64,000 nucleotides of DNA. It comes from Erythrobacter sp. (GTDB lineage: Bacteria > Pseudomonadota > Alphaproteobacteria > Sphingomonadales > Sphingomonadaceae). The stretch is taken from assembly GCA_029937545.1 (NCBI GenBank), contig JAPYPR010000006.1:1-64000 (forward strand), in the 5' to 3' direction. A program made the position numbers and the translations under genes. The number at the start of each line of letters is the position of its first letter. Within the stretch, counting starts at the first letter, position 1. The notes below the pieces were generated by a model that was not told where the DNA came from, made no database searches, and saw only the letters and a list, made by a program, of their open reading frames with translations. Shown here in pieces: positions 61,457 to 64,000 of the stretch.

Positions 61457-62572
61457 TCAGTCGGCGAGGCCGTGTCCGCGGGCCATGTACTCGGCGCTTT
61501 GCATTTCCTTGAGGCGGCTGACCGTGCGCTCGAACTCGAACGACCCTTCGCCGGCGGTGTAGAGGTCTTCCGGTTCGGCAGCCGCGGTGGCGAACAGTTT
61601 GACGTTGTTCTCGTACAGCGCGTCGATCAGCTTGGTGAAGCGGATGGCCTCGTTCTGGTTGTCGGGCGACATGGCGGGGATGCCGACCACGATTACGCTG
61701 TGATAGGCATGGGCGATCGCGAGATAGTCGGCCGCGCCACGGTTCTCGCCGCACAGTCGCTTGAAGCTGAAGACGGCGACGCCCTTGAAACTCTTGGGCA
61801 CATGCAGCGTCCGCCCGCCTCCGAGGTCGAGGGTGCCCGACGGCACATGCTCGGCATCCTCCGGCTTGTAGTCGGTGAGGCGGAAGAACGCCTCGCGCAC
61901 TTGCGCGGTCGCTTCGTCGCCGAGCGGCGAGTGCCAGGTGTCGATATCGCCCAAGCGGTCGAGCCGGTAATCGGTCGGGCCGTTGAGCGGCAGCACATCG
62001 AACTCGGCCTCGACCAGGTCGATGAAGGGCAGGAAGAGCGAGCGGTTGAGCCCGTCCTTGTAGAGATCGCGGGGAGGGCGGTTGCTGGTGGTGACCACGG
62101 CAAGCCTCTCGTCGCAGATCAGTGCGGTGAACAAGCGGCTCATGATCGCGGCATCGGCGGTGTTGGTGACCACCATCTCGTCGAAGGCGAGACAGCGGAC
62201 GTCCGTCGCGATGTCGCGGGCGACCTTGCCTGTCGGATCGCCCGGATCGGTTTCGCGCCGTTCGCGCATGCGGCGGTCGACCTCGAGCATGAACTCGTGG
62301 AAGTGGACGCGGCGCTTCTGCCCGATCTCGAGTGTCTCGACGAACAGATCCATCAGCATGGACTTGCCGCGACCGACGCCGCCCCACATGTAGACGCCCT
62401 GCGGCCGCGTTTTGCGCCCACCGAACAGTTGGGACAGGAGGCCGCCGGAACTTTCGGAGGTCAACTCGCGCTGCAGCTTGTCGAGCCGTTCCGCAGCGCG
62501 GCGCTGATCCGCGTCCGAGCGCAGCTCGCCGGCTTCGACGAGCCGCTCGTAACGAGCGAGCATACCGCTCAT
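61457..62572 (-). CDS. zapE: Cell division ATPase ZapE (AFG1 family)
   Basis: 371 aa. Walker A GGVGRGKSMLMD near residue 64, VHFHEFM, Walker B LAFDEMVVTN and the SNRPPRDLYKDGLNR segment define the AFG1/ZapE family, which interacts with the division ring and helps clear damaged membrane proteins. It commonly lies near the sdh/mdh genes in alphaproteobacteria, as here. The ATG overlaps the thioesterase stop (ATGA). Confidence 0.94.
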   Translation of the reverse strand: MSGMLARYERLVEAGELRSDADQRRAAERLDKLQRELTSESSGGLLSQLFGGRKTRPQGVYMWGGVGRGKSMLMDLFVETLEIGQKRRVHFHEFMLEVDRRMRERRETDPGDPTGKVARDIATDVRCLAFDEMVVTNTADAAIMSRLFTALICDERLAVVTTSNRPPRDLYKDGLNRSLFLPFIDLVEAEFDVLPLNGPTDYRLDRLGDIDTWHSPLGDEATAQVREAFFRLTDYKPEDAEHVPSGTLDLGGGRTLHVPKSFKGVAVFSFKRLCGENRGAADYLAIAHAYHSVIVVGIPAMSPDNQNEAIRFTKLIDALYENNVKLFATAAAEPEDLYTAGEGSFEFERTVSRLKEMQSAEYMARGHGLAD

Positions 62573-63036
62573 TGCGGGGTCGGGCGGCGGTGCATCTTCT
62601 TCACGATGCCGGAGAAGCTGGCGACGGTGTGGTCCTCCTGCTCGACCGTCCCGCGCACGAACACCATGCTGCCGGTCTCGCGCACGATCTCGCACACCGC
62701 ATCGAGCGGGCGGCCGGGCTGCCCGCCGCCGACGAACTGGGTGGAGAGCTCGACCGTCACCGAAGGGCCGGCATTGCCGCTGCCGATCGTGTGCATGGTC
62801 GTGAACAGGCTGATGTCGATCAGCGACAGCGTGACCGCGCCGTGGATGATACCCTGCAGGTTCTCGTGTCGCCGTTCCGGGAACATGCGCAGGCGCGCCT
62901 TGCCATCATCATCGACGCGCGTGATGAGCTTACCCATCACCGCCCCGTTGAACAGCGACTGGTCCTTCAGGTTCCAGTGCCGCCAGCCCGGATTGTCCGG
63001 GTCAGGCCCGTGATCGAAGACCTCGTCCGACAGCAT
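62569..63036 (-). CDS. PaaI-family hotdog thioesterase
   Basis: 155 aa. Hotdog fold with NLQGIIHGAVTLSLIDISLF (HGG-like HGA at the active site), SVTVELSTQFVGGG and the C-terminal FVRGTVEQEDHTVASFSGI, as in acyl-CoA thioesterases of the PaaI family. The substrate is unknown. ATG 63036 is chosen because its codon lies in the TAATG left by the inserted element (63039-63304); the frame is open to 63111 only because of element sequence. It overlaps zapE by ATGA. Confidence 0.85.
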   Translation of the reverse strand: MLSDEVFDHGPDPDNPGWRHWNLKDQSLFNGAVMGKLITRVDDDGKARLRMFPERRHENLQGIIHGAVTLSLIDISLFTTMHTIGSGNAGPSVTVELSTQFVGGGQPGRPLDAVCEIVRETGSMVFVRGTVEQEDHTVASFSGIVKKMHRRPTPQ

Positions 63037-63038
63037 TA

Positions 63039-63304
63039 GACCCTGCCCCACGGGGCCGGATGCATCTGGATTGCGCCGTAAGGCTGCGCGGGTAGGCGCG
63101 TCGCGCAGCACGGGCCATTTGCCCGCGCCAGCGATGCAACGCAGTCACGCAGCCTTACAGCGCAACCGCGAAGCGGCGGGCCGACTTTGGTCCAGCGCTG
63201 CGTTGCTCGTCGGTCACTGTGTGAGAGCATGGCTCCCTCCTCGCGCCTGTCGCTGAACCAAAATCGGCTCCGTCCAGACATATTCGGCTCCGTGGGGCAG
63301 GGTC
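63039..63304. mobile_element. MITE-like element with terminal inverted repeats and TTA duplication
   Basis: The 266-bp interval begins GACCCTGCCCCACGG (63039-63053) and ends with the exact complement (63290-63304). The inverted repeats extend to about 31 bp (63039-63069 and 63274-63304) with 26 matches; the five differences are all transitions. TTA flanks both sides (63036-63038 and 63305-63307), as expected of a 3-bp target duplication. Inside are an 18-bp inverted repeat with one mismatch (63071-63088 and 63148-63165) and a direct repeat TCGGCTCCGT (63264-63273 and 63284-63293). No transposase is encoded. Removing the element plus one TTA restores a TAATG overlap between sdhB and the thioesterase gene. 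Confidence 0.7.
63071..63165. repeat. Internal inverted repeat (possible structured RNA) in the MITE-like element
   Basis: TTGCGCCGTAAGGCTGCG at 63071-63088 pairs with 63148-63165 with a single mismatch. The 59-base centre contains a smaller hairpin with CGGGC and GCCCG arms around 63111-63125. If transcribed from the sdhB promoter, this would form a stable branched structure in the intergenic mRNA. Confidence 0.6.
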
Positions 63305-64000
63305 TTAGATCGCGCGTTCGGCGATCATCTTCTTGGTTTCGGCGATCGCCTTGGCGGGCGAGAGGCCCTTGGGGCAGACGTTCGCGCAGTTCATGATCGT
63401 GTGGCAGCGATAGAGGCGGAAGGGGTCCTCCAGCTGGTCGAGCCGCTCGCCAGTCATCTCGTCGCGGCTGTCGGCCAGCCAGCGATAGGCCTGCAGCAGG
63501 ATCGCCGGGCCGAGGAACTTGTCGCTGTTCCACCAATAGCTGGGGCAGGCGGTCGAGCAGCAGGCGCACAGGATGCACTCGTAAAGCCCGTCGAGCTGCT
63601 CGCGCTGCTCGGGCGACTGGAGCCGCTCCTTGCCACTCGGCGTGGTCGAGACGGTCTGCAGCCAGGGGCGGATGCTGGCGTATTGCGCGTAGAAATGCGT
63701 GAAGTCGGGCACGAGGTCCTTGATCACATCCATGCTCGGCAGCGGAGTGATGCGAATTTCGCCCTTGAGGTCCTCGATCGCCGTGGTGCAGGCGAGGCCG
63801 TTCTTGCCGTTGAGATTCATCGAGCACGAGCCGCAGATGCCCTCGCGGCAGGAGCGACGGAAGGTCAGCGTCGGATCGATCTCGTTCTTGATCTTGAACA
63901 AGGCGTCGAGAACCATCGGGCCGCAATCGTCGAGGTCAAGCTCGAACGTATCGTAGCGCGGGTTTTCGCCGGTGTCGGGATCGTAGCGGTAGATCTTGAA
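63305..64000 (-). CDS. sdhB: Succinate dehydrogenase iron-sulfur subunit, 5' end beyond the window
   Basis: The last 231 aa are visible; about 25-30 N-terminal residues lie past 64000. Ligands for the 2Fe-2S cluster are in [18 protein letters not shown] with the next Cys in LACTTAI. The 4Fe-4S and 3Fe-4S ligands are in [16 protein letters not shown] and [15 protein letters not shown]. It carries electrons from SdhA to ubiquinone in complex II. The stop codon TAA (63307-63305) is part of the TTA duplication that flanks the MITE-like element. Confidence 0.97.

Follow-up and report, generated by a model that had tools for sequence, protein, structure and literature searches.

The 266-bp interval between sdhB and the thioesterase gene in the window, by which we mean the whole 64,000-nucleotide stretch of DNA analysed here, is an insertion, and it is probably one member of a widespread and seemingly unnamed family of small mobile elements that are defined by their fold. 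A search with the thioesterase protein found it in 59 of 60 genomes of the genus, including the genome that holds the window, and of the 58 others with a match, 29 were used to read the sdhB/thioesterase junction. The junction was empty in all 29 of these relatives; the sdhB stop codon lies 271 bases from the thioesterase start in the genome of the window, whereas in the others the alignment starts 4 to 27 bases after the stop. These empty junctions, together with the presence of family members at other genes in other genomes, bear out the earlier note on this DNA, which had taken the interval for an inserted element. On the minus strand sdhB ends in TAA and the thioesterase gene begins in TAATG, and the note had proposed that deletion of the element plus one TTA restores an overlap of stop and start. 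The arithmetic of this deletion is correct; however, an ancestral TAATG was seen in none of the 29 relatives, so the restored overlap is not a state observed at the junction. The four closest relatives have ATC-TGA-c-GTG, and the junctions of the remaining relatives vary (TGATGG, TGATCCC, TAAGGTGG, and others). Either the stop and start were mutated before the insertion or the site was altered afterwards. TA, here TAA, lies on both sides of the element, and with closest empty alleles reading TGAcGTG the duplicated target is not directly visible. In one relative (G063, locus L203) the junction reads TAA-AGACCTGTC-TAG, which is longer than that of several close relatives and resembles two element tips fused; our guess is that it might be the deletion scar of a similar element.

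Rereading of the window sequence confirmed the perfect 15-bp inverted repeats at 63039-63053 and 63290-63304 and the TTA on either flank (63036-63038 and 63305-63307). The five transition-type differences described for the extended arms were also present, but the arms pair over 33 bp instead of about 31 bp (63038-63070 with 63273-63305); on the minus strand this pairing comprises 28 Watson-Crick, 2 G.T, and 3 A.C pairs. We refer to the minus strand, which is the sense strand of both sdhB and the thioesterase gene, as the core strand of the window element. Its predicted fold has an energy of −179.1 kcal/mol compared with −116.2 ± 5.2 for shuffled sequences (z = −12.2; 0 of 200 shuffles), and the plus strand gave z = −10.2 against its shuffles. 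These arms form just one of four helices, the outermost, and the four are designated P1, P2 with the core, P3, and P4 (Table 1). Recognised domains occurred only in the two flanking genes; the open reading frames of at least 61 amino acids that touch the interval were taken as mechanical, with no recognised gene in the element. Both flanking reading frames were intact, with gene ends that agree with those of relatives. A promoter inside the element, which the note had suggested, was not supported, as a simple consensus scan found no sigma-70-like promoter there. One terminator-like site was placed immediately outside the element by a consensus scan.

Table 1. Coordinates of the window element, its helices, and the flanking genes
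Feature	Position	Strand	Remarks
Whole element, 266 bp	63039..63304	minus	268 bp with the outermost A/T pair (63305/63038) included
sdhB, iron-sulfur subunit, 3' part in the window	63305..64000	minus	Fer2_3, Fer4
TAA, sdhB side	63305..63307	minus	stop codon of sdhB; also the left repeat of the insertion site, TA or TAA
P1 outer stem, 5' arm, 33 nt	63273..63305	minus	first base belongs to flanking TTA
P2 (stem A), 5' arm	63251..63271	minus	R1 match 63177-63271
Conserved core GGCGCGAG...inner hairpin...GACGAGCAACG	63201..63247	minus	
P2 (stem A), 3' arm	63177..63197	minus	R1 match 63177-63271
P3 small hairpin CCGCTTCGCGG	63166..63176	minus	
P4, 5' arm	63148..63165	minus	
P4 terminal hairpin (GGGC/GCCC)	63111..63125	minus	
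P4, 3' arm	63071..63088	minus	
P1 outer stem, 3' arm	63038..63070	minus	last base belongs to flanking TTA
TAA, thioesterase side (within TAATG)	63036..63038	minus	right insertion-site repeat
4HBT thioesterase gene	62569..63036	minus	domain match

The note had regarded the element as a MITE of a family that it could not name. A single MITE family whose ends stay fixed was not supported: members of the family differ in arm sequence and keep their self-complementarity and an internal core. A host family with fixed ends was rejected, as no second copy of the ends was found. Neither blastn nor a search with the end pattern gave a further exact place for the window ends in the genome of the window (a draft of 105 contigs), and when up to two mismatches were allowed the pattern gave 17 matches there, including the element's own two, versus 13 for the reversed control. 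When blastn was run against 61 genomes (this genome and 60 relatives), matches occurred in eight; beyond the element itself and short matches, there were four partial matches at 69-76% identity, whose outer arms differ in letters yet are complementary to each other. Shared by these partial matches was an internal motif consisting of GGCGCGAG, 28 bases, and GACGAGYAACG. Four weak matches of 28-42 bases (L002, L007, L008, and L009) were rejected, as by eye they resemble one conserved coding stretch and not elements. The core pattern GGCGCGAG...GACGAGYAACG was present at 13 places in 8 of the 60 genus genomes and at none in the reversed control, and R1, a covariance model spanning the 97 columns of the core, matched 27 places in 9 of the 60, with 12 in G073 and 6 in G074. 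With R1 we also found a second, divergent copy in the genome of the window (G000, contig C46), which has an Alpha-E gene on one side and a transglutaminase-like gene on the other and whose ends differ from those of the window element. This second site was read at 30 loci, of 57 genomes; it was filled in three (G000, G078, and G035) and empty in 27, where the junction was TGATG in 26 and TAATG in one. Both copies in this genome are located at near-touching stop and start codons.

The family extends well beyond the genus. An exact-core scan of a named genome collection gave at least 117 stretches, some of which will be chance matches and many of which come from MAGs, in gamma-, alpha-, beta-, and deltaproteobacteria, Acidobacteria, Verrucomicrobia, Planctomycetes, Chitinophagales, Elusimicrobia, Actinobacteria, and others. 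A simple search found an inverted repeat spanning 150-335 bp around 83 of the 130 core places listed, and the spans fell mostly into two length classes of about 157-169 and 265-285 bp; examples outside Proteobacteria were in Elusimicrobia (L060 and L086), Chitinophagales (L052 and L069), and Verrucomicrobiota (L088 and L103). At an E-value of 1e-4, R1 identified carriers in at least 73 of 398 evenly drawn Pseudomonadota genomes, this one included, the counts being lower bounds because no more than 10 candidates were scored per genome and stricter filters were applied. Thirty-seven of the 73 carriers belong to one family (f43) and the remainder are spread across 17 other families. Three Thiodiazotropha genomes contained 192, 97, and 189 ends of the local type (reversed control, 0), which corresponds roughly to 50-100 copies per genome if the ends come in pairs. 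Some Thiodiazotropha end pairs (G084:C11:46276-46342 and G086:C10:169583-169660) span only 67-78 bp and consist of arms without a core. Eight of the ends listed for G084 are no farther than 200 bp from where a contig starts, and elements of this family may therefore break assemblies. Among the shorter forms, L183 (G073:C12:44146-44236) lacks the P2 3' arm, P3, and P4 but retains the two outer arms and most of the core, and is a natural deletion derivative; L118 (4888-5004), from an alphaproteobacterial MAG, has a total length of 103 bp, with the core flanked by one long stem (about 26 bp) and no separate outer arms seen, and is possibly a minimal family member. Searches of plasmids with the whole window element and of phages with a 51-base core query gave no match; four plasmid records matched the core of a Thiodiazotropha copy. 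Rfam gave no match to the window element at E 1 or to the elements at seven further family loci at E 0.05. A literature search on the motifs, ends, and hosts of the family, covering titles and the starts of abstracts and few subscription journals, found no description of it. In our reading the elements probably form a widespread family of small mobile sequences that are non-coding and apparently unnamed.

The folded shape of these elements is conserved. In alignment A2, for which 54 rows were taken from 121 candidate places partly by stem complementarity so that the percentage paired is inflated, 81.1% of the cells in stem A and the inner hairpin were paired, as compared with 47.2% in shuffled and at most 46.8% in slid alignments. 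There were 482 cells changed on both sides, and 0 of 500 shuffles reached four of the five measures used; 261 of the 500 did reach the fifth, which counts the pairs changed on both sides. In alignment A4, consisting of 24 full-length elements of the long class hand-picked within this and neighboring genera and including three orthologues, 91.8% of the cells were paired in the four-helix layout, versus 65.1% after shuffling, with 533 double-change cells versus 155; no shuffle of 500 reached any of the five measures, and double changes were found at 75 of the 85 pairs. The orthologues of the second copy provide an example, as G035 differs from G000 and G078 by a double change of C-G to G-C in P1. 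The family is defined by its fold more than by its end sequence, most letters being unconserved. In a palindrome, strand-switch correction of the DNA can likewise produce covariation, which is therefore no proof of a working RNA.

In 68 of the 103 elements, each of the two ends had TA no more than a few bases away, as compared with 2.4% for random pairs of 8-mers. Near-identical copies in G073 have the flanks CTA/GGGTCC..GGACCC/TAA, CTA/../TAG, and TTA/../TAG, which differ outside TA, so that TA is the common part; YTAR-like flanks were found in many copies. The base after TA was a purine in the copies read, and a stop codon at the site is therefore restored. The elements are mostly intergenic, with an open reading frame assigned across the element in 10 of 83 by a crude caller. 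Together with the empty sites, TA at both ends points to insertion at TA; of the 3-bp duplication described in the note, TAA is indeed present on both sides here, but the ends of other copies suggest a repeat of 2 bp, TA. Such ends, and the loose consensus of the arm tips, roughly RGRSYC, are also what we would expect of an ordinary IS630/Tc1-type MITE, in which a transposase supplied in trans binds the duplex ends and moves the element by cut-and-paste at TA, the arms matching because one protein binds both and the inside being passive. IS630-family elements insert at and duplicate TA, and a title cited in the same source gives CTAG as a favored site (PMC2170065); RUP has been proposed to move with IS630-Spn1 (PMC2229807). 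However, there was no match to DDE_3, the IS630-type domain, in the genome of the window; DDE_3 was present in only one of the nine element-bearing genus genomes (G073), whose three DDE_3 loci, of about 3 kb each, had no matching ends; and DDE_3 was rarer in carriers (12 of 73) than in other Pseudomonadota genomes (102 of 325). A resident IS630 partner was rejected on these grounds, and the IS with the same ends that the note had envisaged was not found, DDE_3 being the one family looked for. In addition, the arms vary between copies within one genome and remain self-complementary, and a conserved core with covarying P2 and P4 contradicts a passive inside, so that we regard an ordinary IS630/Tc1-type MITE as somewhat unlikely. 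Genes for Y1_Tnp were commoner in carriers (52 of 73 versus 160 of 325), but we did not build on this link, as 37 of the 73 carriers are in f43, 19 carriers have neither gene, the genome of the window has no match, and the association is confounded by shared ancestry.

Arms that match themselves and differ between copies would also be produced if strand-switch correction or gene conversion kept them complementary and the folded form had no function. Counts of G.T and A.C pairs on the core strand bear on this reading and on the question of which strand acts. An outer-arm scan covered 157 loci, several of which represented the same element twice, and 103 elements were kept after selection by arm score and length (140-340) and removal of repeated arms; their outer arms contained 136 G.T versus 53 A.C pairs. 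Stem A likewise had 66 G.T to 39 A.C in columns 2-21 and 57 to 17 in columns 4-19. In A4 the corresponding counts were 47 to 20 for P1, 21 to 2 for P2, 2 to 11 for the inner hairpin, 2 to 2 for P3, and 5 to 28 for P4, where the A.C excess lies mainly in columns 158-160; the near balance when these helices are summed, 77 to 63, counts in favor of DNA-level maintenance. The P1 and P2 counts hint that the core strand acts as a single strand, the strand test being mixed overall, and one-sided cytosine deamination would look like the P1/P2 excess of G.T. Maintenance at the DNA level alone leaves unexplained why the core and the mismatch columns are conserved, why lengths are nearly constant, and why G.T is in excess in P1 and P2; we consider this reading distinctly unlikely. 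The orientation of the elements relative to neighboring genes showed a weak tendency (40 to 27 upstream and 42 to 31 downstream) with a crude caller that misread the window locus, and was dropped as evidence because it was too noisy. That the interval is a fixed, non-mobile regulatory region of the sdh operon, for which its very stable structure might speak, is extremely improbable given its absence from the junction in all 29 relatives read and the location of the relatives' copies at other loci. The family might instead be a distant branch of an ERIC superfamily, with the same core layout (AAGGCG..GCGAG..GGAGC(hairpin)GTGAC..GAGC..AACGC), TA ends, intergenic location, and transcription. A real ERIC copy aligned with R1 in the same register, and its mean alignment score to 54 cores was 28.1 as against 23.6 ± 1.8 for shuffled sequences, with 18 of 1000 shuffles as high; when the comparison was confined to the interior, mononucleotide shuffling gave 35 of 2000 as high and dinucleotide shuffling 49 of 2000. 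R1 nevertheless did not recognise ERIC significantly (7.1 bits, E 0.57), an unrelated palindrome in the same locus scored 15 bits, and a second ERIC locus lacked such a full-length match; moreover, the ERIC locus matched Rfam V_AS5 below the cut-off, and elements at seven family loci matched nothing. With about 2% of shuffles scoring as high, the sequence likeness is suggestive only, and we view kinship with ERIC as possible but doubtful.

We therefore favor, as the probable reading, a copy of a fold-defined mobile family at the sdh junction, and we propose the following sequence of events. A trans-acting enzyme would insert the element at TA, often within YTAR; where the target lies in a TAA or TAG stop codon, the stop would be restored and both neighboring genes left intact. 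In the sdh operon the element would be cotranscribed in the core-strand sense, and the mRNA between sdhB and the thioesterase start would then carry a very stable four-helix structure. By replacing a nearly contiguous stop and start, this structure would most likely uncouple translation or alter the processing or stability of the transcript. We infer these RNA-level effects on the sdh transcript by analogy with ERIC and Correia elements, for which effects of this kind have been reported (PMC2229807, PMC10969869). A broader scheme, which we consider rather unlikely, would make the family part of a cross-phylum superfamily in which the mobility enzyme recognises the folded strand, the ends drift as long as the arms pair, the GGCGCGAG/GACGAGYAACG loop is the binding site, and ERIC is the enterobacterial branch.

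ERIC-like palindromic repeats are usually described clade by clade, and the route by which small palindromic repeats transpose is named as a question for the future in a review (PMC2229807). One conserved core in 18 Pseudomonadota families, with matches in other phyla, offers a comparative handle on that transposition, since comparison shows which parts are constrained (the core, the helix lengths, and the pairing) and which part is free (the arm sequence). The family would also add to operons a structured insertion, often at stop codons, that has no match in Rfam.

In integron attC sites and in REP/BIME, structure counts more than sequence. The analysis gave no link of the present family to integrons or to RAYT, and the genome of the window has no Y1_Tnp match. 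The RUP elements of pneumococcus are similar in inserting at TA, encoding no protein, and having many copies (PMC2229807), but RUP ends resemble those of a resident IS630 element, whereas no such partner was found for the window family. The Correia, or NEMIS, elements of Neisseria, to which the family is likened by description only, share TA ends, 24-bp terminal inverted repeats, transcript hairpins, and a short and a long class (PMC2229807). A real E. coli ERIC copy (L249 359-482) matched Rfam V_AS5 (RF02818) with 46.9 bits, below the gathering score of 96. ERIC, also known as IRU or RU-1, is described as 127 bp long and reported in Enterobacteriaceae and Vibrionaceae (PMC2229807, PMC10969869), and it is like the window element in being a small palindrome with TA ends that is mostly intergenic and forms a long stem in transcripts (PMC2229807). 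The two possibly share core motifs as well; the window family, unlike ERIC, comes in lengths of about 160 or 270 bp, with arms that vary freely and exact-core matches in other phyla.
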